IMG/VR virus record: IMGVR_UViG_3300021115_000021
Span: 1 to 21,774 of that record
DNA length: 21,774 nucleotides
Reading direction: 5' to 3' (one strand)
Origin: a virus
Shown: positions 1 through 21,774 of the stretch, piece after piece
Numbering within the stretch: the first letter of the stretch is position 1
Layout: every line of letters starts with the position of its first letter
Translations under genes and position numbers: made by a program
The notes under the pieces: model-generated
Databases searched by the model: none
The model's input: the letters and a program-made list of their open reading frames with translations, nothing else
Told to the model about the DNA's origin: nothing

Positions 1-1015
1 CTTTTTTTACATCTCTAGCAATGTAGGTGCAGAATTGACCATCATCGTGTAATACTTCGAGCTTGCCCTTGTAGTCAATGCCAGTTTCTTCTTTGGTTTC
101 TCTGCGAGCAGCTTCTTCTAAAGTTTCGCCTTCTTTTTGATGACCGCCTGGTACGCACCAAGTATTAGGGTAATCCCCACCACCTGCGCCTCTGCGAATC
201 AGCAAAGTATGACCTTCGCCAGTAACAAACATAATTCCAGAAGCCCGACCTGCTGCGCCAGCATTATTGGCAACTGGAGCAACTACTTCTGGAGTCTTAG
301 CTACAAGTTCGGCTGCATCTGGCACACAATTTGGCACTTCTTTACCATTCTTTTCTTTCATGCCAATCTGGTGATAGCCTTCCCAACAAGGATCATCATC
401 TGGAATGGCTTGAGCATATTCAATTAATGAATCGCAGATTTGAGCCAATTTATCCGACATGGAAGAATCATCATCACATTTCCATTTTCTAAGGGATTTG
501 TTGATTCTGGAATCTGGATCATTAGCGGTTGCGCTGCTAGTTAGTTTTGCTTTCATGCCCTTCATGCGAGCACAGAAAGACTCTTTTCTTGAGCCGCCTT
601 CAGGCTGAGGGGCTTTTAAATGAGCACCATGTTCCTTGTTATAGGATTCACGACCTTTTTCATTTAAACCGCCATTTTTGTTTTTACCCTCTTTGGTTTC
701 CCATGCTTCTGAGTCTTGTCCAAAGCGAGGTACAGTTTGGGATTGGTCTTTAAGACCCATAATGATTTTGGCTACATCAGCCAAATCACCTTGAAATTTC
801 TTTAATTCATCTTTTTTGCCAGCACGAATGACAATTTCGTCATCTTCTTTAAATTCTGGAGTGCTGAGTGGAGTAGCTTCTTCTGGGAAATCGCCAGAGT
901 TATCTTCGCTATGCTTAATGAATTTTTTAGCCACCTCTTTTGGAATTCCGATATTGCTATGCCCTGCTAAAGCAGCATACATAGCTTTTCTTTGAGCTTC
1001 GGATTCAAATGGCAT
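1..1015 (-). CDS. Nudix-domain phage head-module protein, 3' end missing
   Basis: The frame stays open to the left edge, so about 338 N-terminal residues are visible and the C-terminus is missing. Three parts can be read. Residues 1-40 are the kind of 'SEAQRKAMYAAL' lead-in seen in phage head-region proteins. The middle has a Cys-containing stretch (SFCARMKGMKAKLT, then NDPDSRINKSLRKWKC) that I recall as DUF5872-like, followed by a GMKEKNGKEVPNCVP motif. The C-terminal part is a Nudix hydrolase domain with a complete Nudix box: GHQKEGE, seven residues, then RETKEETGI, which fits GX5EX7REUXEEXGU. Nudix enzymes hydrolyse nucleoside diphosphates linked to another moiety; the substrate here cannot be told. 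The start ATG follows an AGGG ribosome site 8 nt after the stop of the head-morphogenesis gene. I infer a virion-associated or co-expressed enzyme. Confidence 0.85.
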   Translation of the reverse strand, partial: MPFESEAQRKAMYAALAGHSNIGIPKEVAKKFIKHSEDNSGDFPEEATPLSTPEFKEDDEIVIRAGKKDELKKFQGDLADVAKIIMGLKDQSQTVPRFGQDSEAWETKEGKNKNGGLNEKGRESYNKEHGAHLKAPQPEGGSRKESFCARMKGMKAKLTSSATANDPDSRINKSLRKWKCDDDSSMSDKLAQICDSLIEYAQAIPDDDPCWEGYHQIGMKEKNGKEVPNCVPDAAELVAKTPEVVAPVANNAGAAGRASGIMFVTGEGHTLLIRRGAGGGDYPNTWCVPGGHQKEGETLEEAARRETKEETGIDYKGKLEVLHDDGQFCTYIARDVKK

Positions 1016-1023
1016 AAACTACC

Positions 1024-1824
1024 CTACGATATTTTTGATGATTGTAACGCTAGTTCACCCTTTTTTGTCAGCATTTCTTTTGGCATTTTACGCAAACTGT
1101 AAATATACTTGTAATTACACCGACAATACACTTCTTCGCCTGGCGAAGTAATGTCATCAGTATATCCATTAATTGCCTTTATGTAACCTTTTTCACTCGC
1201 CCAGTTACCACGAATGACATAAACTTTTTCATCTCTCTCTTTATGATCTTTGCGGTAGTTGTAATTAATCTGCTTCCAATGACTATGCCATTTACCAGCA
1301 ATTGCGCCATTATCAATAGCGACAATGTCATTAATATTAGAAATGAGTTTATGAGTTTGATCTATTACAACTCGCCTTTGATTAAAAGGCATTTTGGCTA
1401 AAGACTTTTTAATATTTTGCTTTTCTTTATTGCGGTCTACTGCGAGTGAACCGCCTTTAGGAATGGATGTAGCCCAACCTTCAAATCTTCTGAGCACATC
1501 TGTAATACTTTGCTCTCGATTGTATTTAATAAGGTTTGCAGAAGCCATGATTCTGCGATCCAACTCAGCCCGAAGTTTAGGCTTGAGTTTCTCAATGTCA
1601 TACTTACTGACATCTTTATTGACTAAACCACTTTTGGTGACTAAGCGAGAAAAGGCTGCATTTAAAGCCTTTTCCATTTCCCTTTGCATTTGCTCATCGG
1701 AAATTAAAGCCTTTTCCGCAGCTTCTTTGATTTTCTTGAGCCAGTTATCGACACGACTTTGGGAATCAAAGCCATGTTCAATAAAGTCATTGATAGCAGC
1801 AGTTAAGACTTCATAGAAAGTCAT
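1024..1824 (-). CDS. Phage head morphogenesis protein (Mu F / SPP1 gp7-like)
   Basis: This 266-residue protein has a long helical N-terminal half rich in Lys and Glu. Its C-terminal domain (about residues 175-250) has the pattern of minor head proteins of the Mu gpF/SPP1 gp7 family: WHSHWKQINYNYRKDH, then EKVYVIRG, then SPGEEVYCRCNYKY. The Pro-Gly-Glu...Cys-Arg-Cys motif is the family's signature. Such proteins bind the portal and are present in a few copies inside the capsid. The gene lies 8 nt after the HPRD-linker protein and 8 nt before the Nudix gene, in the same operon. In most phages it follows the portal directly; here about 3.6 kb of small genes intervene. No strong Shine-Dalgarno sequence is visible, only AAGAC. 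Confidence 0.82.
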   Translation of the reverse strand: MTFYEVLTAAINDFIEHGFDSQSRVDNWLKKIKEAAEKALISDEQMQREMEKALNAAFSRLVTKSGLVNKDVSKYDIEKLKPKLRAELDRRIMASANLIKYNREQSITDVLRRFEGWATSIPKGGSLAVDRNKEKQNIKKSLAKMPFNQRRVVIDQTHKLISNINDIVAIDNGAIAGKWHSHWKQINYNYRKDHKERDEKVYVIRGNWASEKGYIKAINGYTDDITSPGEEVYCRCNYKYIYSLRKMPKEMLTKKGELALQSSKIS

Positions 1825-1832
1825 TTGAAGTC

Positions 1833-2312
1833 TTATTTTGGATGAAAATTAAATTGATTTAACCCTATCATTTGAGATTGTCTATCTACATCAATAGGAA
1901 CTCCTTGCGACATGGTAAAACCATTTTTTTCCATAGTTTGTAAAACTTTTTTTAATTCTGGCTCTTTCCAAGTTTGACCATAAGGTATAAAAACTTTAAC
2001 TGAACCGCCACCTTCGGCAACTTTTACATTAGCTTTTATACCAAAAGATTTAATTTCACTTCTAACAGTTTCGGCTTTTAAAGTTAATTTATTGCTTGAT
2101 TTTGAGGTTTTTCCACTTGATTTGGATTTTTCAGTAGTTTTTGAACTTCCACCGCCACCAGAGGAAAACTTTCCATCATTATCTCTTGGATGTTCAGATT
2201 CTTTAAAATCAGCATCAACAGCTAAACGATAATTTTTATCTTTTAAAAGGTCTTGAGCCAAATCTCCAACAGCATTAACAAAAGTATTATTTTTTAAATT
2301 TTTAAATTTCAT
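1833..2312 (-). CDS. Small protein with HPRDxDGKF linker motif and LPD29-like C-terminal half
   Basis: The chosen ATG start gives 159 residues and overlaps the XRE gene by 11 nt; an upstream TTG at 2324 would add four residues. Residues 41-49 read HPRDNDGKF, followed by a Gly/Ser/Lys/Thr-rich linker of about 30 residues. The same motif and context (Ala-Asp-Ala, Glu-Ser, HPRD, Gly-Gly-Ser) occur in the portal protein at residues 491-499, just before its RelA/SpoT-like domain. The C-terminal half (SEIKSFGIKANVKVAEGGG, then SVKVFIPYG) resembles in pattern the N-terminal part of the LPD29-like protein encoded at 3038-3526. Function is unknown. The shared motif suggests a virion protein or cargo built on the same linker as the portal tail. 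Confidence 0.65.
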   Translation of the reverse strand: MKFKNLKNNTFVNAVGDLAQDLLKDKNYRLAVDADFKESEHPRDNDGKFSSGGGGSSKTTEKSKSSGKTSKSSNKLTLKAETVRSEIKSFGIKANVKVAEGGGSVKVFIPYGQTWKEPELKKVLQTMEKNGFTMSQGVPIDVDRQSQMIGLNQFNFHPK

Positions 2313-2511
2313 GTCTAGAACCAATCTTTAATAAAAATAATTCCCAAGCAGCAGGGTGAATACGACTTTTGCCAGTTTCGTAATTACTCCACCTAGCTTG
2401 GGTAGTATATATTAAAGATGCTGCTTTGGATTGTGATAAATCACCTCTAGCTGCAATAATTTCAGTTGTATTAGGCACGACACCATTTGTGCCACGATTT
2501 CTTTTGTTCAT
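2302..2511 (-). CDS. XRE/Cro-like helix-turn-helix regulator
   Basis: A 69-residue protein with a single helix-turn-helix domain. The stretch DLSQSKAASLIYTTQARWSN, followed by YETGKSR and HPAAWELFLLKIG, matches the short phage and plasmid XRE-type regulators in which the recognition helix is followed by W-x-x-Y/W-E-x-G. Its start overlaps the stop of the (p)ppGpp-hydrolase gene as TGATG, so translation is probably coupled. It is the only clear XRE-family regulator in the left cassette. It is therefore the obvious candidate to bind the operator-like palindromes in the cassette promoters, but that is inference. Confidence 0.75.
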   Translation of the reverse strand: MNKRNRGTNGVVPNTTEIIAARGDLSQSKAASLIYTTQARWSNYETGKSRIHPAAWELFLLKIGSRHEI

Positions 2512-3038
2512 CAAATAACAATTCTTTTATCCATTAAATCATTGAAACATTCAACCAAATAAGGGTTTTTAATATTAGCAGCATTAAAAACTCTTTCGGC
2601 AAAATCGAAATAAGCAGCTTTTCTAGCATCATCCCAAGTTACAGGCGGTCTATATAAGACATCTTGCAAGTTACAGATTTTATCAGCTACTTTAATTAAT
2701 TTGCCCTCTGGACTAATCATGCCAACCTTAACTACCTGGGCATCCTTACGAGCCATGCCACTCAAAGCAGGATCATCGCTAACCTCTTGCACAATCAATC
2801 CGATACGAGGGTTAAAGCGAGCAGAAATGTCAGCCACCGAAACCCCACAATCTTCTACTACATCGTGCAAGACCGCAGCAGCGATAACATCCTCATCAAC
2901 TACACCAGCCATAATCAACAATTGAGCCACCTCGATTGGGTGTCTAATGTAGGCAGATTCTTCCGCATCCTTCCGAACCTGCTTTCCATGCTTGTCAATC
3001 GCAAAAGCAATCGCATCCAAAATAATATCTATATTCAT
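2511..3038 (-). CDS. Small alarmone hydrolase, HD domain (Mesh1/SpoT-like)
   Basis: This 175-residue protein is nearly all HD domain, the size of stand-alone small alarmone hydrolases such as Mesh1. Visible motifs match the Rel/SpoT hydrolase signature in order: RKD at 22-24, the metal-binding His of IRHP (His33), LHDVVED (His58-Asp59 for metal, Glu62-Asp63 for catalysis) and VADKICNL (Asp119). Enzymes of this family remove the 3'-pyrophosphate of (p)ppGpp using Mn2+. Some, such as the ATfaRel antitoxin, counter toxic RelA-like synthetases. The start overlaps the LPD29-like gene as TAATG and the stop overlaps the XRE gene as TGATG, so the three are one translational unit. No synthetase domain is attached; a RelA/SpoT-like domain is found instead at the C-terminus of the portal. 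Activity and substrate are inferred from motifs only. Confidence 0.85.
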   Translation of the reverse strand: MNIDIILDAIAFAIDKHGKQVRKDAEESAYIRHPIEVAQLLIMAGVVDEDVIAAAVLHDVVEDCGVSVADISARFNPRIGLIVQEVSDDPALSGMARKDAQVVKVGMISPEGKLIKVADKICNLQDVLYRPPVTWDDARKAAYFDFAERVFNAANIKNPYLVECFNDLMDKRIVI

Positions 3039-3526
3039 TACGCAGCCTTCTGTCCTTCTACAAACTCATAGTACTGGTTTTGCATATAACCACCAGCAAA
3101 CAACTTGTAAACCAAGTGGCTGGCATACCCATTGAAACTCATATTGTAGAAACTATGAGCATCCTTGAAACTATCTGGCGCACCTTCCATACCAGAGTAA
3201 TAACCTTTCATGAACTGGTAAATCTTCTCGCCCAACTCATCACTCATTTTGTTATCAACAAAGGCATACTTCACTTGAGGAATATCATCTCTACGATTGC
3301 TTATTTCGTAAATATCTTCCATGCCATTGAAGTGACCATACTCAAACTGATTAACATAAGCAACCAAATCAGCATACTGGGCTGGTGGCAAATCTTGGAC
3401 ATAAACATGAATACTGCTGCCCATGCTGTAGCTTTTGCTACGAACACTACCAGCGATTCCTTGAGCTTTCATATAAGCCCGAATCATTTTGGCAGCACCA
3501 GCATGACTACTAATTTCTTTTTTCAT
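3038..3526 (-). CDS. LPD29-like polyvalent-protein-associated domain protein
   Basis: A 162-residue protein. Residues 10-75 (AAKMIRAYMKAQGIAGSVRS, then GSSIHVYVQDLPPAQY, then FNGMEDIYE) follow the pattern of the LPD29 domain described in large polyvalent proteins of phages and conjugative elements: an alpha helix, two strands with a Gly-Ser-Ser-Ile turn, and an acidic helix. The remainder is rich in Tyr and Gly and unassigned. It opens a three-gene translationally coupled unit with the alarmone hydrolase and the XRE regulator. A CACGAAAGGA leader lies 6 nt before the ATG, and a GC-rich UUCG hairpin sits just upstream of it. Biochemical role is unknown. The family call rests on pattern resemblance only. 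Confidence 0.6.
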   Translation of the reverse strand: MKKEISSHAGAAKMIRAYMKAQGIAGSVRSKSYSMGSSIHVYVQDLPPAQYADLVAYVNQFEYGHFNGMEDIYEISNRRDDIPQVKYAFVDNKMSDELGEKIYQFMKGYYSGMEGAPDSFKDAHSFYNMSFNGYASHLVYKLFAGGYMQNQYYEFVEGQKAA

Positions 3527-3532
3527 TTTGAT

Positions 3533-3558
3533 TCCTTTCGTGAAGCCCCCGAAGGGGC
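3533..3558 (-). promoter_or_regulatory. UUCG hairpin followed by CACGAAAGGA leader
   Basis: On the minus strand a 5-bp GCCCC/GGGGC stem with a TTCG loop (3545-3558) is followed after two T residues by CACGAAAGGA (3533-3542) and the ATG of the LPD29-like gene. The stem is strong but lacks a real T-tract, so it is more likely an mRNA stability, processing or attenuating element than a complete terminator. Confidence 0.5.
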
Positions 3559-3563
3559 ATTAA

Positions 3564-3896
3564 TCAATCCATCCAACCATCGTAATACTCACCGACAATC
3601 CCATTAGCAGCCAAGAATTCCAAAGCAGGAGCAACTGATTTCGCAGCAGCCACATTTCCCTGAACAAAGCTACAAGGCACAATGCTTTTTTCTACAACAT
3701 TTCTTTTTCCTTTGCCCAAGTAGTAAATCCGAATCGCTTTGCCACCGCAGCAGCTACCGACATCCTCACCGCCATTGTCCAACCAGCTTTGATACCAGAC
3801 AGACTCAGCAGCTTTGATATAGGGCATTTTTTCAACCAAGTCAGCATCCTGGTATGCCATGACTTTTTTGCCAGCCCAGATTTCAACTTCTTTCAT
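3564..3896 (-). CDS. Hypothetical phage protein
   Basis: A 110-residue soluble protein that I do not recognise. It has a Cys-Cys pair in a Gly-rich turn (GSCCGGKAIRIYYLGKGKR) and a C-terminal YYDGWMD. It is the first gene behind the leftmost class I promoter (P1) and has the CACGAAAGGA leader 5 nt before its ATG. Both the promoter and the leader argue that it is a real, early-expressed gene. No membrane segment or signal peptide is seen. Confidence 0.7.
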   Translation of the reverse strand: MKEVEIWAGKKVMAYQDADLVEKMPYIKAAESVWYQSWLDNGGEDVGSCCGGKAIRIYYLGKGKRNVVEKSIVPCSFVQGNVAAAKSVAPALEFLAANGIVGEYYDGWMD

Positions 3897-3901
3897 AATT
3901 T

Positions 3902-3957
3902 TCCTTTCGTGGTTAATTACTACACTTTCAGTATATACCTATTAGGTATTAATGCAA
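3902..3957 (-). promoter_or_regulatory. Class I promoter P1 with perfect operator palindrome and CACGAAAGGA leader
   Basis: Read on the minus strand: -35 TTGCAT (3952-3957), a 16-bp spacer, -10 TATACT (3930-3935), then a leader ending in AACCACGAAAGGA. The spacer holds a 15-bp perfect palindrome, ATACCTATTAGGTAT (3935-3949). A dyad between -35 and -10 is the classical position of a repressor operator. The leader from AGTGTAGTA onward is nearly the same as that of P3 on the plus strand. Confidence 0.7.
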
Positions 3958-3985
3958 CAACTTTTTTAGGGTTGTTGCATTTTTG
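3951..3985 (+). terminator. Possible terminator hairpin or dyad
   Basis: An 11-bp perfect stem (AATGCAACAAC at 3951-3961 with GTTGTTGCATT at 3971-3981) has a 9-nt loop and is followed on the plus strand by TTTTGC. It has the shape of a Rho-independent terminator for plus-strand transcription, though no plus-strand gene precedes it. Its left arm covers the -35 box of P1 on the other strand, so it may equally be a regulatory dyad. Confidence 0.4.
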
Positions 3986-4228
3986 CTACTTCAGCATTTC
4001 CTTCATAAAAGATGCTTTCTTGGCATCCAATTCTTTGATATTCAACTTGCAATCTTCACAATCGCAGGGAATAACATCATTTTTGGCAGCTTGTCGAATT
4101 TCAGCCATAGTATCAAAACCTCGAACATGGACTAAATCATCTGAAAATCTAAAGCCGAATGGCAACCAGAGCATATAGGCATCGCCATCTGCATCTACAT
4201 CACGAGTAACATCTAATTGGTATTTCAT
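3986..4228 (-). CDS. Hypothetical acidic protein with CDCEDC motif
   Basis: An 80-residue protein of unknown function. It has an acidic stretch (DVDADGDAY) near the N-terminus and a Cys-rich motif, PCDCEDCKLN, near the C-terminus that might bind a metal, though only three cysteines are present. The ATG at 4228 is chosen because a CACGAAAGGA leader with AAAGGAG stands 6 nt upstream; an open extension to 4330 lacks any ribosome site. It follows the 4254-4451 gene by 25 nt and is probably cotranscribed from P2. Confidence 0.68.
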   Translation of the reverse strand: MKYQLDVTRDVDADGDAYMLWLPFGFRFSDDLVHVRGFDTMAEIRQAAKNDVIPCDCEDCKLNIKELDAKKASFMKEMLK

Positions 4229-4234
4229 AACAAC

Positions 4235-4244
4235 TCCTTTCGTG
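4235..4244 (-). promoter_or_regulatory. CACGAAAGGA leader copy, intercistronic
   Basis: This copy lies between two cotranscribed minus-strand genes, preceded by TAGTTCAAC. That resembles the promoter-proximal leaders, although no promoter is needed here. Confidence 0.6.
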
Positions 4245-4253
4245 GTTGAACTA

Positions 4254-4451
4254 CTAGAAAAACTTAGAAACCCGATACTCGATACCATCGAGCATATATT
4301 CAATATCAAGGGCTGCTGGCTCTGCTTCAAAGAACTTCAAAGCACTAGAAGCAACATAGCCCTGCCGACCCTCAAGAACTGGCAGACCATTGCGAACTAC
4401 AGCAACTTTTTGATAAGAACCAAAGCATTTTTTGGCAATCAAGAGGTTCAT
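4254..4451 (-). CDS. Hypothetical small protein
   Basis: A 65-residue protein that I do not recognise. It has alternating hydrophobic and charged segments (MNLLIAKKCFGSYQKVAVV, then GIEYRVSKFF), probably a small beta-rich domain. It is the first gene after class I promoter P2 and has the CACGAAAGGA leader 6 nt before its ATG. The gene pair 4451 to 3986 forms a short operon divergent from the plus-strand genes starting at 4636. Confidence 0.65.
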   Translation of the reverse strand: MNLLIAKKCFGSYQKVAVVRNGLPVLEGRQGYVASSALKFFEAEPAALDIEYMLDGIEYRVSKFF

Positions 4452-4457
4452 TTTTTA

Positions 4458-4515
4458 TCCTTTCGTGAGAGTTAATGAACAATTTAATATTATGCCTATT
4501 TAGCATCAATGTCAA
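4458..4515 (-). promoter_or_regulatory. Class I promoter P2 with operator-like dyad
   Basis: On the minus strand: a perfect -35 TTGACA (4510-4515), a 17-bp spacer and -10 TAATAT (4487-4492). The spacer contains an imperfect version of the P1 palindrome: plus-strand ATGCCTATTTAGCAT at 4492-4506, with five of seven arm positions paired. The leader carries CACGAAAGGA at 4458-4467. Confidence 0.72.
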
Positions 4516-4571
4516 ATCTATTTACCTAAAGTGTTGTTTTTGCACAAATACAACAAATAGTGAAATAGTCC

Positions 4572-4628
4572 TTGTGCCTATACCTAATAAGCATTAATAT
4601 GTAAGTGTAGTAGTTAATCACGAAAGGA
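4572..4628 (+). promoter_or_regulatory. Class I promoter P3 with operator-like dyad
   Basis: On the plus strand: -35 TTGTGC (4572-4577), a 17-bp spacer and -10 TAATAT (4595-4600). The spacer contains ATACCTAATAAGCAT (4580-4594), the third member of the dyad family (five of seven arm positions paired). The leader has GTGTAGTA and ends in CACGAAAGGA (4619-4628). P2 and P3 diverge, about 56 bp apart between their -35 boxes. Confidence 0.7.
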
Positions 4629-4635
4629 GTTTGAA

Positions 4636-4782
4636 ATGAGTTTGCCTTTGTATGGATATGAGGTTTTCAGTATTGCCCAAGCCCAAGGGATTTTGATCTT
4701 GGCTTTGGCAAAAGGTCAAATGGGCAGGGCTGCTGCTGCTAGGGCAGTTATCCAGCAATTTCAAGAAAGGAGTGCAGCATGA
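4636..4782 (+). CDS. Hypothetical small Ala/Gln-rich protein
   Basis: A 48-residue protein of unknown function, mostly helical (FSIAQAQGILILALAKG, then Ala-rich, then VIQQFQERSAA). It is the first gene behind promoter P3, with AAAGGAG 7 nt before the ATG. Its stop overlaps the next start as ATGA, which supports it as a real coupled gene. The hydrophobic stretch at residues 18-26 is too short for a confident membrane segment. Confidence 0.65.
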   Translation: MSLPLYGYEVFSIAQAQGILILALAKGQMGRAAAARAVIQQFQERSAA

Positions 4783-5009
4783 GTCAGGAAATGTATGGTT
4801 GCGACATTGAGCAGTTTATAGCGCAGATCAGATCATCAGCCAGCTACAAGTTGGGTGGGGCTGGTATTGTTGTTGCTGGTCTTATGAGTGATGCTCAAGA
4901 GGAATTGGCTGTGGGTGCGAATGAGAGAGCCAGACAGAGTTTGAACAGAGCCAAAGCGATTTTGTTTGAAATCATGGATGGCAATATGATTTTGGAAGTT
5001 CCAAGATAA
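4779..5009 (+). CDS. Hypothetical helical protein
   Basis: A 76-residue protein that I do not recognise. A Gly/Val/Ala stretch (KLGGAGIVVAGLMSDAQEEL) is followed by an amphipathic helix with Arg and Ala (ANERARQSLNRAKAILFEIM). The start has a strong AAAGGAG inside the end of the preceding gene and overlaps its stop as ATGA. It is the second gene of the P3 operon. Confidence 0.68.
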   Translation: MSQEMYGCDIEQFIAQIRSSASYKLGGAGIVVAGLMSDAQEELAVGANERARQSLNRAKAILFEIMDGNMILEVPR

Positions 5010-5010
5010 C

Positions 5011-5020
5011 CACGAAAGGG
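5011..5020 (+). promoter_or_regulatory. CACGAAAGGG leader copy, intercistronic
   Basis: This copy follows the stop codon of the preceding gene by one nucleotide (TAA-C-CACGAAAGGG) and ends 5 nt before the ATG of the next gene. Confidence 0.6.
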
Positions 5021-5025
5021 AAATC

Positions 5026-5208
5026 ATGTCAGTCAAATATTTTGTTGAAAGTTCGAAAGTTGATTATGACGATTGTTTGGAGTATTTCATTCTTTATAGC
5101 GGATTCTCAAAAGAAGATGCTATTTCTGAGTTTGATTCCAATAACAATCCAGAGTGCGCTGCTTACATTAGTGAATTGTGCTCGGATGTAGAAGTAGTTT
5201 ACGAGTAA
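5026..5208 (+). CDS. Hypothetical acidic small protein
   Basis: A 60-residue strongly acidic protein (many Asp and Glu, few basic residues) of unknown function. Small acidic early phage proteins are often inhibitors or DNA mimics, but nothing in the sequence proves this. It closes the P3 operon: a Rho-independent terminator starts 17 nt after its stop. Confidence 0.66.
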   Translation: MSVKYFVESSKVDYDDCLEYFILYSGFSKEDAISEFDSNNNPECAAYISELCSDVEVVYE

Positions 5209-5224
5209 AAATTCCTACTATTAC

Positions 5225-5246
5225 AAGCCCTTTCGAGGGCTTTTTG
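5225..5246 (+). terminator. Rho-independent terminator
   Basis: A 7-bp stem (AAGCCCT at 5225-5231 with AGGGCTT at 5236-5242) with a TTCG tetraloop is followed by a run of T residues. It ends the P3 operon. Confidence 0.88.
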
Positions 5247-5278
5247 TTATATGATAAAATGAATTGAAAGGGCAATAT

Positions 5279-5497
5279 ATGAAAATTGGTAACTACGAAA
5301 TCAGTCCATCAGCAATCTTCTATGTAACCGCAGAAGATGGTTTGCCTGTATCGGTTAATGCTGGCAAAGATATTCCTATGTCAGCAATCTGGATTAATGG
5401 TGAACCAAAAGAATTCAATATGAAAGATGAATTCTTATTGCCAAGCAATGCTAAAGTTTTTCAAGCCTTAGTAATGGATTCCCAAGCTGCATCATAA
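5279..5497 (+). CDS. Hypothetical small protein, converging on the portal gene
   Basis: A 72-residue protein that I do not recognise (MKIGNYEISPSAIFYVTAED at the N-terminus). The ATG at 5279 is preferred over an upstream TTG at 5264 because GAAAGGG lies at a normal distance before it. It starts 32 nt after the terminator, so it needs its own promoter; a TATGAT-like -10 is present near 5248 but no good -35 is visible. Its last 37 nt overlap the 3' end of the portal gene on the other strand, so the two transcripts are antisense at their ends. Confidence 0.6.
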   Translation: MKIGNYEISPSAIFYVTAEDGLPVSVNAGKDIPMSAIWINGEPKEFNMKDEFLLPSNAKVFQALVMDSQAAS

Positions 5498-7740
5498 AGA
5501 GCTTTCATCTTCGCATTAAGATTATTGACTTTAGCTTCTTCATAGACATTGAGTTGTTTACCAGCTTGTGCTGCATCTTCTAATATGATGCGAACTTCCT
5601 CATAGTAGCCATGCGCCTTTTCTTTGGCTTCCATCATCGCTGGTAAATTGATCTGCACTTCAGCATAAGAGCCATTGACCTCAACTACCATATTGACATC
5701 TCGATAGCCAGAGCCACCCAGAGAATCAGACTTAGGATCAAGCAAGTTTCTCAGCTTAACTGGAGTACCATATTCAGCTTTGAGTTTGCTAATTGCGCTA
5801 TCAACATCTTTTAGCGATTTGATTTCAATGGTAGTGCGAAGTAAATCTTTAATCTTGGTTGGATCATTGTCATACGACTTAGTAATCTTATCGACTGCTC
5901 TTTGTGATCCCTTCAATGGCACAATCGCAGCCCGACCACCTAGTTCTTCAGCAATCTTTAAGTTGGTGTTGTCGAAGTGATCTTTATTCTCGGCTGCTTT
6001 CTCATACATTTCTGTAAAGATTTTTTGTTTTTCTTCAGGCAATCTTTCTACATCAACTTGTTTCAGCTTACCAGCCAAGTGCTCTTTAGCACGATTGGCT
6101 TTTGGTGCTTCAGGCTTTTCAATTGTTTTTGCTCTAGGTGCTTGTGGTTTCTCAGTCAGAGCAGTTTTGGCTGCTGGTGCAGTAATCGCTGCGGTCTGTC
6201 TGCCCATTGGTTCAGTAGCAACACTACCACCAGCTATAGAAGTAAACTTTCCATCGGAATCTCTGGGGTGATCGGATTCTAGGAAAGCATCAGCCTTTGG
6301 GATGGGATTAGCCCAATCTCCCCTTGCAAAGTAAGCATCCAGCCTTGGTAAGTTTTTAAGTTCCGCTTCTGGAATTTCATATTCGGCAATAGCATCAGCA
6401 TCAATTTGTAGGCTGCTCTGAAACATATCTGGCATTTCATTGATATTGTCAGTAGCCCATTGAATTAAATTTGCCCTATTTTGTGGATCAACAACTGGCA
6501 ACATTGTGCGAAGCAACTCAGTAATACCTTTGAGTTTAATATCTTCCACCTTTACTTTTTCGCTAGGTGGTTCTTCCATGAGTGATTCCCACTCAGCTTT
6601 GAAGTTGTTTTGCCATTGATAGAATGCTTGTTCATAGGACATCTTGCTATAGATTTCTGGATAAGCAGATTGAACAGCTTCATAGAATTCTTTATTCCAT
6701 GCTCGGTGCATAACGATCTTGTCAAAGAAAGCAAATAGGCTTTCCATATCCACTCGGATGCCATCAATGTATTGAACAATGGCTTTTGCATCTTCTGAAC
6801 CTTCGCCAAATCCTTGAGTAAAGGCTTCATCTTTGAGGAGCAAAGCAGGAACATCAGAAGCAGCAGCGATATTGGCAATGATGTTATCTCTGGCAGTTGT
6901 CATAGATGTTGCGGTATTGGTCAAATCAATAGAGTTGATTTCCTCATCAATATCAATGGAGAGCACATTACCAGTACCGCCTTCTTGCAAGTAAGTGCGC
7001 TTGATACCAGCAGCATTTTGCATTAAGCGATTGACAATTGATCCAGCAGGTTTTTGTTTCGCAATGATTAAGCCAGACTTGAATGTCACCAAGTCATCGG
7101 TAATCATAGATTGAATAAAAGACTTTAGTGGATATAAAGCCCTTTGAAAGACTGACCTACCTGTAAAACCGAAGGCACTAGACTGAAATTGAAGATATAC
7201 AGGAGTGCCATTAAAAACAACAACACTACGACTAGGATGATAGGGCTGACCAGCAGCAGTAGTATAGGCAAGAGGTTTTTGAAAGTCAGGCGCATTTGGG
7301 TTCTGATTCGTCACAATCGAACCAGCCATATTGAGTGGGTCTAACTGATTAAAATAAAGATTAAGATAAGGAAGATTCCAAGGGTCAATGGGATCAGTAG
7401 TAGGAATCTTATCAGCCCCCACAACAATGCCAGCAGCACCATAGGTACGATTGATAAACATAACATCACGAATATGATTAGTAGCACCGAGTTTTTCCCA
7501 TTCTCTATTAAATGCTTCAGCCAACATTTCTTTAGGTTGAGCATCTATTGTAATAGTTCTTGGCTTAGATAGCGCAAGTTTTACAGGCTTTTCAACTAAT
7601 TTGCCACCGAGAGGATGATATGTCCAGATTTGTTTGCATAATTCATATCCTGCTTGCGAACCTGGCTGAATGTTGTCAGCACTTAAAAGGCTCATCAACT
7701 CACCGCCAAGATATGTATTATTAATCATTACATCTGACAT
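5461..7740 (-). CDS. Portal protein (DUF1073-like) fused to a C-terminal RelA/SpoT-like domain
   Basis: A 759-residue protein. Residues 1 to about 440 resemble the DUF1073 phage portal family (WTYHPLGGKLVEKPVKLAL near the start; SDVPALLLKDEAFTQGFGEG in the middle). The portal is the dodecameric ring through which DNA is packaged. Residues 485-505 carry the HPRDSDGKF motif, followed by an Ala/Pro/Lys-rich linker (about 510-555). Residues about 575-735 look like a RelA/SpoT synthetase fold: PLKGSQRAVDKI (Lys610, Arg614, Lys618), KDLLRTTIEI (Asp632), GSGYRDVNMVVEV (the Gly-Tyr loop, Tyr679), YAEVQINLP (Glu694, Gln696) and AHGYYEEVR. Asp632 and Glu694 match the two acidic catalytic positions of the family. 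The start has AAGGAAG. The fusion fits the theme of effector domains on phage head proteins; whether it makes (p)ppGpp, pyrophosphorylates tRNA or is inactive cannot be told. Confidence 0.85.
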   Translation of the reverse strand: MSDVMINNTYLGGELMSLLSADNIQPGSQAGYELCKQIWTYHPLGGKLVEKPVKLALSKPRTITIDAQPKEMLAEAFNREWEKLGATNHIRDVMFINRTYGAAGIVVGADKIPTTDPIDPWNLPYLNLYFNQLDPLNMAGSIVTNQNPNAPDFQKPLAYTTAAGQPYHPSRSVVVFNGTPVYLQFQSSAFGFTGRSVFQRALYPLKSFIQSMITDDLVTFKSGLIIAKQKPAGSIVNRLMQNAAGIKRTYLQEGGTGNVLSIDIDEEINSIDLTNTATSMTTARDNIIANIAAASDVPALLLKDEAFTQGFGEGSEDAKAIVQYIDGIRVDMESLFAFFDKIVMHRAWNKEFYEAVQSAYPEIYSKMSYEQAFYQWQNNFKAEWESLMEEPPSEKVKVEDIKLKGITELLRTMLPVVDPQNRANLIQWATDNINEMPDMFQSSLQIDADAIAEYEIPEAELKNLPRLDAYFARGDWANPIPKADAFLESDHPRDSDGKFTSIAGGSVATEPMGRQTAAITAPAAKTALTEKPQAPRAKTIEKPEAPKANRAKEHLAGKLKQVDVERLPEEKQKIFTEMYEKAAENKDHFDNTNLKIAEELGGRAAIVPLKGSQRAVDKITKSYDNDPTKIKDLLRTTIEIKSLKDVDSAISKLKAEYGTPVKLRNLLDPKSDSLGGSGYRDVNMVVEVNGSYAEVQINLPAMMEAKEKAHGYYEEVRIILEDAAQAGKQLNVYEEAKVNNLNAKMKALYDAAWESITKA

Positions 7741-7749
7741 AGTTCTTCC

Positions 7750-9051
7750 TTAGTAGCCATATTTATCACCAACACCAATGGCTAGACTATAAACGAAAGC
7801 ATCTAATAAGTCATCTGCTCTTTTGTAGGCTTCTTTATCGCCAATTCTGAAACTGGTGACTTGAGATAATAGATGATTACGACTTGCATTCTTAAATGTC
7901 ATAGTTTTATCAAAAGCATATTCGCTAATCTTCATTAGTCCTTGATGAAAGTAACCTGATACAGAAATGGCTCTTTCATCTTTGCCAACTGAAGTCAGTC
8001 CAGAATCAATCGCATGAGTATTCCATCCTCTGCTGCGACCTTGTTGTATGAGAATCGAACCAGCAGCAGCATCTTCAATGAATGTTCCGACAACTCCAGC
8101 CCTTGCATTAGTCAATCTAGCCAGTTCTTCCAACCTTGCAAAAACACTTGGCATCCAATTTTCCAACATTGCGCCATCAATCTGCACAATATCCCAATCA
8201 AGAATAATCAAGTTGTAGGGGTTTTGGGTGTACTTATCGACTGCCACATACACAATCGCAGTACCATCATTTTCTTTTCCACCCTTGACCGCAGTATCAA
8301 TGACTGCATAGACACCATCGCATTTAGTAGGATAGGCAACTGGCTTACCATCGACTAGCAGCTTATCGACACTAAAGAAGGCTTCACCAGCCCAATCCAC
8401 GAACTCAGCCAGATATTCCTGCTTAAAGACTAATGGGTGATTTTCTCTTTCCAGCTTCTTGAGTTCTTCGGCTGGCAAGAATGGATTGGTAAAAGTAGGG
8501 GCATGATACTCAGTAAAGCCATGTTCAGGTTGATTGCATATCTGCCAAAAGAAATTATCGCTATCTATGCCATTAGGAGTGGAAGCTACTAGACAACTGC
8601 CTTGATAGTCTAGTAATGCTGGTTTAATCGCAGTTTGCCAGACCTTTGGCATATTCGGCTTGGTAAAGGCTGCTTCGTCAATAAAGGCTTTATGGTACTT
8701 TCTGGATCGACCAGCCCTTTCATTTTCCAGAGTCCAGAAGTCTATGCGCCCACCTGTATAGGTTTGAATGATTCCATCAATCTTGGATGCTTGCTTAATC
8801 ATTGGGGATAATAGGTCGGTAATCTCTCGAAAGGCTTCCGATTGAATTTTGTAGTCTGGAGCAAACCAGCCTATCTTCTCGCCTTGGGCTGCTGCTGCAC
8901 AAGCAATATTCTGCATCATTGCAGTTTTGCCCCATCGTCTACCGCAGCGCACTACAAAGAATCGAGTGGAAGCATTGTAGGCTTCTTGTTGTCCCTGATG
9001 AAAAAGGGGTAGGTTTATGGGTTCTTTACTTTGTTTTGACTGGGATGCCAT
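7750..9051 (-). CDS. terL: Terminase large subunit
   Basis: The motor ATPase and nuclease that packages DNA into the prohead. With the ATG at 9051 it has 433 residues. Walker A is RCGRRWGKT (35-43), Walker B is KAFIDEAAF (121-129) and the coupling motif is LVASTPNG (154-161). The C-terminal RNase-H-like nuclease shows its acidic residues in VIDTAVKGG (Asp252), FIEDAAAG (Glu326-Asp327) and DDLLDAFVYSLA (Asp417). The ATG at 9051 has a weak GGA site and overlaps terS by 26 nt. An upstream ATG at 9099 in the same frame would add 16 residues but has no ribosome site. The stop is 10 nt before the portal start, so terS, terL and portal form one operon. Confidence 0.93.
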   Translation of the reverse strand: MASQSKQSKEPINLPLFHQGQQEAYNASTRFFVVRCGRRWGKTAMMQNIACAAAAQGEKIGWFAPDYKIQSEAFREITDLLSPMIKQASKIDGIIQTYTGGRIDFWTLENERAGRSRKYHKAFIDEAAFTKPNMPKVWQTAIKPALLDYQGSCLVASTPNGIDSDNFFWQICNQPEHGFTEYHAPTFTNPFLPAEELKKLERENHPLVFKQEYLAEFVDWAGEAFFSVDKLLVDGKPVAYPTKCDGVYAVIDTAVKGGKENDGTAIVYVAVDKYTQNPYNLIILDWDIVQIDGAMLENWMPSVFARLEELARLTNARAGVVGTFIEDAAAGSILIQQGRSRGWNTHAIDSGLTSVGKDERAISVSGYFHQGLMKISEYAFDKTMTFKNASRNHLLSQVTSFRIGDKEAYKRADDLLDAFVYSLAIGVGDKYGY

Positions 9052-9472
9052 TAACTGTCCAATTGTTATTCTCGGCATCAAATTGAACTTGATCGCCATA
9101 CTTGCGAGGAGCTAATCTTGCCACAATCCATTTTCTCGCATCAACTCTGAGTCGGCTGCGATTAATGTTCTCATGATTGGCTTTACCAGTAGGATTGCCA
9201 TTCTTATCTAATAGTTCATCGGCTTCTGATCCATCAGCGATTTCTAATATTTCCTCAAAATAGAAGTCGGCTTGATGTTCTCTCGCCTGTGCGTATATGT
9301 CTGCAAATTCTTTATGCTTAAACAACCATGACATGACTGTACTTCTATGGGGCATGGATTCGTCATCTCGACAAATTTTGACTAAACCATCTCCATTAGC
9401 AATTCTTTCGCAGATTTTGATTGCTAACTCTAATGAATAATCGGATGGTCTACCTATCTTGTTTTTACTCAT
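9026..9472 (-). CDS. terS: Terminase small subunit
   Basis: A 148-residue protein that recognises the packaging site and hands DNA to TerL. The N-terminal part (GRPSDYSLELAIKICERIAN, then MPHRSTVMSWLFKH) is a helix-turn-helix of the kind found in phage small terminases. An oligomerisation helix follows (FADIYAQAREHQADFYFEEI), and the C-terminal end has RKWIVARLAPRKYGD, also typical. I chose the ATG at 9472; a GTG at 9481 would add three residues but lacks a ribosome site. The 5' leader is bounded by an 11-bp perfect inverted repeat. The gene overlaps terL. Confidence 0.87.
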   Translation of the reverse strand: MSKNKIGRPSDYSLELAIKICERIANGDGLVKICRDDESMPHRSTVMSWLFKHKEFADIYAQAREHQADFYFEEILEIADGSEADELLDKNGNPTGKANHENINRSRLRVDARKWIVARLAPRKYGDQVQFDAENNNWTVNGIPVKTK

Positions 9473-9488
9473 AATCTTCACTAATGGG

Positions 9489-20994: not shown

Positions 20995-21774
20995 TTATGC
21001 TCCTAATTTAGCTTCTAAAGCGGTTACTTTTGCGTTGAGTTCTTGGATTGCTTTAATCATTGCTGGCACTAATACTGAAGAATCTACTTGCCAAGGCTTA
21101 TCAATAGAACCATCTTCTTTATCTACACCAGCAACAACAGCTTCAGGAGCTATTTCATTTAACTCTTGTGCAATTAAACCAAAATCTGTTTTTTCTTGAT
21201 TTTTTTTCCAATCAAAACTTCTAACTTTTATGTTTGCTAATTTATCAAGACCTGAACCAGCATCAACAATGTTTTCTTTTAATCTTTGGTCAGATAAAGA
21301 TGTAAATAATGTTGTTGAACCAGTAGATGTAATTTGTCCAACGGCAGAGCCGTTATAAGTAAAATAACCAAAATAAGCTGTTCCTGATGAAAAGTTAGCA
21401 TTAGCAACAAGCATACCAGAGCTAGCAGAAGTAGACCTAGCTGTTAAAACATTTCCGCCAGCCACAGGTGCGTTAATAACAAATTGTCCTGAATTATCAA
21501 TATATGCTCTAGGATTACCATCGCCATCAGATAACACAATGTAGTTACTTAGTGTGCGGATGTCTAGACCGCCTTGGTTGCCGTTGTAAGTACCAATAAT
21601 GGTGTTTTTAGTACCTGAAGTAATTAAATATCCAGCACCATTACCTAAAGCGGTGTTATATCCACCAGTTGTTGCTTGAAGTGCGTAGTCACCAATAGCT
21701 GTATTATTTACAGCAGTTGTAGCAGAATACAAAGCATAGCCACCAACTGCCACATTTAAAGCTCCACCACTTAC
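20995..21774 (-). CDS. Tail fibre with YadA-like repeats and S74 chaperone, 5' end missing
   Basis: The frame is open to the right edge, so only the last 259 residues are seen. The first part shows the repeat G-Y-x-A-L...T-T-G-x-N-T-A-L-G (VGGYALYSATTAVNNTAIGD, then YALQATTGGYNTALGNGAGY), typical of trimeric YadA-like head repeats. A strand-rich region follows. From about residue 160 there is a peptidase S74 intramolecular chaperone domain: LFTSLSDQRLKENIVDAGSG with the self-cleavage site before SDQRLK, then SFDWKKN, DFGLIAQELNEIAPEAVV and the C-terminal coiled coil MIKAIQELNAKVTALEAKLG. The domain trimerises the fibre and is then cut off. The fibre should bind the host surface. Confidence 0.9.
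   Translation of the reverse strand, partial: VSGGALNVAVGGYALYSATTAVNNTAIGDYALQATTGGYNTALGNGAGYLITSGTKNTIIGTYNGNQGGLDIRTLSNYIVLSDGDGNPRAYIDNSGQFVINAPVAGGNVLTARSTSASSGMLVANANFSSGTAYFGYFTYNGSAVGQITSTGSTTLFTSLSDQRLKENIVDAGSGLDKLANIKVRSFDWKKNQEKTDFGLIAQELNEIAPEAVVAGVDKEDGSIDKPWQVDSSVLVPAMIKAIQELNAKVTALEAKLGA

Follow-up and report, generated by a model that had tools for sequence, protein, structure and literature searches.

In FaRel/ATfaRel and other toxic small alarmone synthetase (toxSAS) pairs, which are free intracellular toxin-antitoxin pairs, a synthetase toxin is neutralised by a small alarmone hydrolase. Alarmone toxins that are borne by a head protein and are accompanied by both hydrolase and binder immunity proteins are also an already known kind, as exemplified by the MuF-Apk2 toxins which occur with IapK and Aph1 in prophages of Streptococcus, Mannheimia and Pasteurella (PMC12226406). 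These toxins form the C-terminal part of the MuF minor head protein, and downstream, within the head module, lie genes for a small non-enzymatic immunity protein and an HD hydrolase. Tas1/Apk1 from Pseudomonas aeruginosa is a type VI secretion system (T6SS) effector found with Tis1; Apk1 has a turnover of 180,000 per minute, and Mesh1 weakens its killing effect by two orders of magnitude (PMC12691689). Here we describe a locus of this type in the virus record IMGVR_UViG_3300021115_000021 from a tailed freshwater phage, of which the entire analysed stretch of 21.8 kb (positions 1 to 21,774) is referred to as the window. Its portal protein of 759 amino acids ends in a domain related to Tas1/Apk1, and a convergent small gene (pp77) and a gene for a Mesh1-like HD hydrolase are located nearby; together these probably form a toxin-immunity cassette.

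The locus resembles MuF-Apk2/IapK/Aph1 in that a synthetase domain of the predicted (p)ppApp type forms the C-terminal part of a head protein, is encoded in the head gene module, and is accompanied by a small partner gene and an HD hydrolase gene. Unlike in MuF-Apk2, the carrier is the portal or, in some relatives, a free tagged protein, with the MuF-like protein encoded by a separate gene (1024-1824, minus strand). Among solved structures the domain is nearest to Apk1/Tas1, the small partner gene is convergent, overlaps the end of the toxin gene and encodes a protein with no matching solved fold, and no integrase family was detected in complete relatives of the phage. With Tas1/Apk1 the domain shares its family, by sequence and by fold, and the same motifs, but the carrier is a phage portal instead of a PAAR/T6SS protein and pp77 has no structural match among solved immunity proteins, Tis1 included. 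Unlike in the toxSAS pairs, the synthetase is a domain of a head protein. Polyvalent phage proteins can also have effector domains attached to a portal or MuF head protein, such as PBECR, 2H or inorganic pyrophosphatase domains on the portal; in the portions of that study considered here, RelA/SpoT domains are placed on MuF and polyvalent proteins, and their fusion to a portal is not mentioned (Iyer et al. 2017, PMC5512222). The Bordetella phage vB_BbrM_PHB04 has a homologous synthetase domain with a Mesh1-like hydrolase encoded downstream (ATI15652/ATI15650). In that phage, however, the synthetase is encoded by an unfused gene following the portal gene, pp77 is absent and a 70-amino-acid open reading frame (ORF) lies in between; its 94-kb genome gives a tyrosine recombinase family match.

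The portal-borne synthetase domain and its partner genes

The portal gene is a single intact ORF (5461-7740, minus strand). The encoded protein combines a portal core of the PF06381 family (residues 1-461, 6358-7740; Phage_portal_3, E = 1.5e-15; PHROG 146, E = 1.6e-52) with a C-terminal domain of 200 residues (residues 560-759, 5464-6063). Since this domain matches Tas1 (PDB 6ox6) with an E-value of 7.8e-15 by sequence alone (phmmer) and of 1.3e-21 with a profile, its motifs are not a chance match, a possibility also ruled out by the fold and selection evidence. The AlphaFold2 model has a predicted local distance difference test score (pLDDT) of 96.1, and its best PDB match in Foldseek is again Tas1 (E = 6.6e-9, probability 1.00). 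The next matches are the exported synthetase SaEAS, SAS2 and Rel, with FaRel2 chains far lower (E about 1e-3). The catalytic motif set of RelA/SpoT homologues (K/R/K, D, GY, ExQ and H..Y) is intact. Residues K610, R614, K618, D632, G678-Y679, E694 and Q696, corresponding to K66, R70, K74, D88, G134-Y135, E150 and Q152 of the aligned 215-residue fragment, are invariant, like the set as a whole, in all 45 aligned diverse relatives. A large excess of synonymous over non-synonymous changes (omega about 0.1) indicates strong purifying selection. The Pfam RelA_SpoT model finds no match in the window's portal protein at E <= 1; it does catch a homologue, L074 (L numbers denote loci), at 4.4e-7, and the miss is a limit of the Pfam model, not of the fold evidence. 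The C-terminal domain is thus a RelA/SpoT-homologue synthetase by its predicted fold and Tas1/Apk1-like by sequence. An earlier note on this DNA had listed the same catalytic residues, suggested a RelA/SpoT-like fold and pointed to the toxSAS class; the residues proved exact, the model agrees with the fold, and the relation to toxSAS can be narrowed to Tas1/Apk1.

Adenosine-type synthetases were reported to differ from (p)ppGpp synthetases in the motifs syn2 (R-Y-T versus A-V-R), syn3 (G-x-N versus S-x-H) and syn4 (Y-H versus I-R) (PMC12226406). Alignment of the 45 domain relatives revealed R-x-T in syn2 of all sequences, S-x-H in syn3 of none, and N or H replacing R in syn4 of 43; syn3 of the window's domain reads D-x-N and not the published G-x-N. 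Given this adenosine-type signature and the kinship with Tas1/Apk1, (p)ppApp is the better guess for the product, favoured rather than proven.

Several small genes on the plus strand run one after another towards the portal gene, and the final one is pp77 (5264-5497, plus strand), which ends within the 3' end of the portal gene. This gene, overlooked in the earlier note, is the partner most tightly linked to the synthetase. It encodes 72-77 amino acids, is convergent with the synthetase-carrying gene, and shares 37 bp with it in the window and 10-49 bp across the loci. The likely start codon is the ATG at 5279, with AAAGGG upstream. In a comparison of gene neighbourhoods, pp77 was present in 7 of 7 synthetase lineages and in none of 14 synthetase-less relatives (p = 8.6e-6), and in a scan of 2.9 million viral contigs all 29 pp77 loci adjoined a synthetase domain. 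The omega value of about 0.1 points to purifying selection; together with the AAAGGG before the ATG and conservation in eight lineages, it led us to reject a spurious antisense ORF. The AlphaFold2 model is confident (pLDDT 94), and none of the PDB entries, which include the Tas1-Tis1 structure, matches its fold with confidence; no sequence match to a solved immunity protein (Tis1, IapK) was found either. A relationship to Tis1 was rejected, as neither sequence nor fold matches. We regard pp77 as a candidate cognate immunity protein, a putative binder of the synthetase. A terminator-like hairpin is located directly before pp77 on the plus strand (5225-5242), which is consistent with separate transcription of this gene.

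The second partner is encoded 2.4 kb downstream of the portal gene (2511-3038, minus strand). It belongs to the HD_4 family, matches human Mesh1 (PDB 3nr1) at 6.3e-30, and retains the complete hydrolase active site (H33, H58-D59, E62-D63 and D119), in agreement with the residues that had been named for it. Within the close group its omega is 0.04-0.10, again indicating purifying selection. When whole records were searched, an HD_4 hydrolase was found in 8 of 9 records with the synthetase and in 0 of 17 relatives without it, some of which are 40-60 kb (p = 5.8e-6). Counted by 90% portal lineages the figures are 5/6 and 0/14 (p = 3.9e-4). Relatives with the fusion that carry the hydrolase include L004, L005, L006, L008, L036/L037 and L044. 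By analogy with Aph1, the protein is a candidate enzymatic immunity protein. The earlier note called the protein a free (p)ppGpp hydrolase; (p)ppGpp is probably a wrong label for the substrate, given the adenosine-type signature of the synthetase.

Exchangeable cargo behind a shared tag

Portals of the four nearest isolated phages examined, Klebsiella RothD, Shewanella QDWS, Yersinia vB_YenM_06.16-1 and Actinobacillus pPE4, are 45-48% identical to the portal in the window, have about 470-485 amino acids and are followed directly by the next head gene. Many environmental relatives likewise lack a cargo, and in most cargo-less phages the MuF gene directly follows the portal gene. Other relatives possess a cassette of 3-5 kb between the two. 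The synthetase is fused to the portal in the window group and in L024, L034, L037, L041 and L044, whereas in L013/L017 and L039 the portal stops at about 470 residues and the synthetase is a free gene behind a tag. The portal fusion proposed earlier thus holds for the window and several lineages, but not as the sole arrangement; because some lineages carry the free tagged synthetase, fusion is only one packaging solution.

A different cargo, a Zeta-toxin-like P-loop kinase, is fused to the portal behind the same tag in L098 (8001-10589), L101 (3388-5910), L110 (2491-5130) and L112 (241-2694), and is encoded as a free tagged gene in L100 (5511-6644) and L114 (10085-11254). The Pfam Zeta_toxin match is above the cut-off for L098 and L100 (3.3e-7 for the latter) and weak in the others. 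On the portal tree, lineages with different cargo are intermixed, and the window lineage stands beside one Zeta-carrying and one cargo-less lineage. A variable C-terminal cargo on a conserved carrier is also the pattern of the MuF polymorphic toxins, with the portal as carrier here.

In the window, the HD hydrolase is flanked by genes for a small XRE-type helix-turn-helix (HTH) protein (2302-2514, minus strand; HTH_31, 1.6e-4), probably the cassette regulator, and for an LPD29-domain protein (3038-3526, minus strand; Pfam LPD29, 1.8e-6). Both genes accompany synthetase as well as Zeta cargo and occur in no cargo-less phage, while pp77 and the HD gene are found only with synthetase cargo in the cassette comparison. 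For the Zeta cargo no matching convergent immunity gene was found; overlapping ORFs in L110 and L114 resemble antisense noise, and a small convergent gene in L098/L100 was rejected as a Zeta-specific immunity gene since it occurs in synthetase loci too. In L162-L164 the tag, the synthetase (54%), pp77 (53%) and the HTH gene (76% identical in L162) are found on a distant portal, which shows no pairwise BLAST similarity to the portal of the window, yet belongs to the same Pfam family.

Every cargo in the phage group, free versions included, is preceded by the tag [FW]xE.xHPRDxDGKF and a Gly/Ser-rich stretch. In the portal of the window the tag reads FLESDHPRDSDGKFT (residues 486-500, 6241-6285, minus strand). 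We propose that it could be a sorting or cleavage site, in view also of the head-maturation-protease-like region that full-length homologues of the gene after MuF encode. The tag also occurs, as SEHPRDNDGKF at residue 45, in a second protein of the window (1833-2324, minus strand) with a C-terminal part of about 100 residues, possibly a further packaged protein. Comparable tagged proteins with no assigned role are encoded in L013 (3643-4092), L017 and L114 (9392-10081). The region has the appearance of an exchangeable set of toxin and protection genes carried by the phage head. A literature search for reports of portal-alarmone or portal-Zeta fusions gave no matching report, although there could be more in further literature; within what was searched, a portal as the carrier is new, and so are the tag, the replacement by Zeta-like cargo, pp77 and the occurrence in apparently integrase-less phages.

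Proposed function and rival explanations

We consider it probable that the region between portal and MuF is a head-borne, Apk-type polymorphic toxin-immunity cassette with both hydrolase and binder immunity. The Apk1/Tas1-type 3'-pyrophosphokinase domain would make (p)ppApp from ATP or ADP and would be carried inside the head by its fusion to the portal, behind the tag as a possible sorting or cleavage signal. The virion-making cell would have two safeguards: the Mesh1-like hydrolase, in the manner of Aph1, would break down the product, and pp77, in the manner of IapK or Tis1, would bind to the synthetase domain and thereby block it. The toxin could be brought into a cell together with the phage DNA, or it could act where the phage genes stay unexpressed, for instance when host defences destroy the DNA or in the case of a co-infecting rival that lacks the immunity genes.

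Several observations weigh against this interpretation. Portal rings generally have about twelve subunits, and as many synthetase copies with an Apk1-like turnover could in principle drain the ATP of a cell within minutes. An active enzyme injected at every infection would therefore hurt the phage unless held inactive. It is more plausible that the enzyme is restrained, or serves in cells in which the phage does not succeed, than that it acts freely whenever the phage infects. Furthermore, twelve fused copies can leave the portal only by cleavage, which is itself putative. As pp77 resembles no solved structure, Tis1 included, it is linkage that suggests its immunity role. Relatedness among the phages makes the linkage counts less than fully independent, and some of the cargo-less records are fragments. 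The tie between hydrolase and synthetase in relatives, expected in the earlier note, stands as linkage but is not universal: no HD hydrolase was found in two synthetase-carrying fragments, L039 (10.4 kb) and L162 (21.4 kb). In L041 and L045 the downstream HD gene is lacking and a different, diverged HD subtype is encoded upstream of the terminase genes (L041, 507-1010; L045, 362-865).

Tentatively, the same loci could represent a head-sorted toxin system of non-integrating phages. A head protease would cut the tag and free interchangeable toxins, either the alarmone synthetase or the Zeta-like kinase, in the capsid for delivery with the DNA, which would kill cells in which the phage is unable to express its immunity genes; pp77 would then be a new family of synthetase-blocking proteins.

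The gene pair and its linkage would look the same if the packaged synthetase made alarmone early to slow or reprogram the host, with the hydrolase, expressed with the other phage genes, clearing it later, so that the pair would work as a timer. Portal-bound copies would in that case enter or remain close to the entry pore. Moreover, two close relatives that are probably complete, having exact terminal repeats of 127 and 99 bp (49.1 and 48.1 kb), gave no match to the tyrosine (PF00589) or serine (PF00239) recombinase families, which makes a lysogen benefit unlikely, although other lysogeny routes may exist. We nevertheless think such signalling unlikely: the closest characterised relative is a killing toxin, the swap with Zeta-toxin-like kinases on sister portals fits arms-race cargo better, and pp77, the tightest partner, would have no role.

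It is also quite improbable that the HD protein has no relation to the portal domain and serves as a counter-defence enzyme that acts on toxSAS or alarmone-based immunity of the host. Such HD alarmone hydrolases do occur in many phages without this synthetase (197 phage records), and phage HD hydrolases have been suggested to act against alarmone immunity of the host (PMC7824862). Within the phage group of the window, however, HD_4 is found only together with the synthetase, in the proportions given above, and in the PHB04 type the HD gene directly follows the synthetase gene. Similarly improbable is a toxin-immunity cassette in which the domain acts like FaRel2 or CapRel and pyrophosphorylates the 3' ends of tRNA instead of making (p)ppApp. 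The toxSAS-like fold is shared and FaRel2 chains are among the fold matches, but the nearest relative by sequence and fold is the (p)ppApp maker Tas1/Apk1, with FaRel2 far below. That the domain is a non-catalytic remnant whose fold is kept for portal assembly or DNA contact is very hard to maintain: it does belong to a structural protein in the fused lineages, but its catalytic motifs are invariant, it is a separate gene in L013/L017 and L039, isolated phages have related portals without it, and the same portals bear unrelated cargo.

Published descriptions place MuF toxins in temperate phages (PMC5576092), and their purpose is given as unknown. The same toxin chemistry is predicted here on the portal, and on sister portals other toxin-like cargo takes its place. 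As complete relatives gave no integrase family match, a lysogen benefit is not an obvious explanation, so that portal-borne, exchangeable cargo in apparently integrase-less phages makes the benefit of head-borne toxins to the phage testable. Additionally, pp77 represents a predicted immunity family whose fold, modelled with high confidence, matches nothing solved, and the HPRDxDGKF tag provides a handle to find packaged effectors in other phages.

Flanking genes and the wider family

The remaining head genes are on the same strand as the portal gene. In the minus-strand order they start with the terminase small subunit (9026-9481; Sf6_terminase, 2.9e-39) and the terminase large subunit (7750-9099; PHROG 2, 1.9e-32), followed by the portal, several small genes, the HD, HTH and small tagged proteins, and the MuF-like head morphogenesis protein (PHROG 324, 2.3e-25). 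The cassette is thus located between portal and MuF. After the MuF gene a truncated gene (2-1015, minus strand) encodes DUF6321 and NUDIX domains. Its full-length homologue in L017 (11668-14265) additionally contains a head-maturation-protease-like region (PHROG 2229, DUF2213), and homologues follow the MuF gene both with and without the synthetase. Further away, a Peptidase_S74 (endosialidase chaperone) domain is encoded at 20995-21753 (minus strand), a typical tail-fibre end. A PADLOC search for defence systems returned zero matches.

The synthetase domain is also found outside this phage group. It is present inside large polyvalent virion-type proteins, for example in L050-L070, which reach at least 3,700 amino acids and have a recurring C-terminal extension with no HD gene nearby. 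In the PHB04 type the synthetase gene adjoins the portal gene with the HD gene close behind (8 loci: L072, L074 and L077-L082), and this pair is a separate occurrence that supports the linkage. Finally, a few bacterial genomes carry the domain in proteins resembling Tas1 effectors. Two such Tas1-like proteins, in L088 (1817-2296) and L089 (7001-7378) from Oceanobacter and Pseudomonas sp. JUb42, are followed by a weak HD match 78-202 bp downstream.

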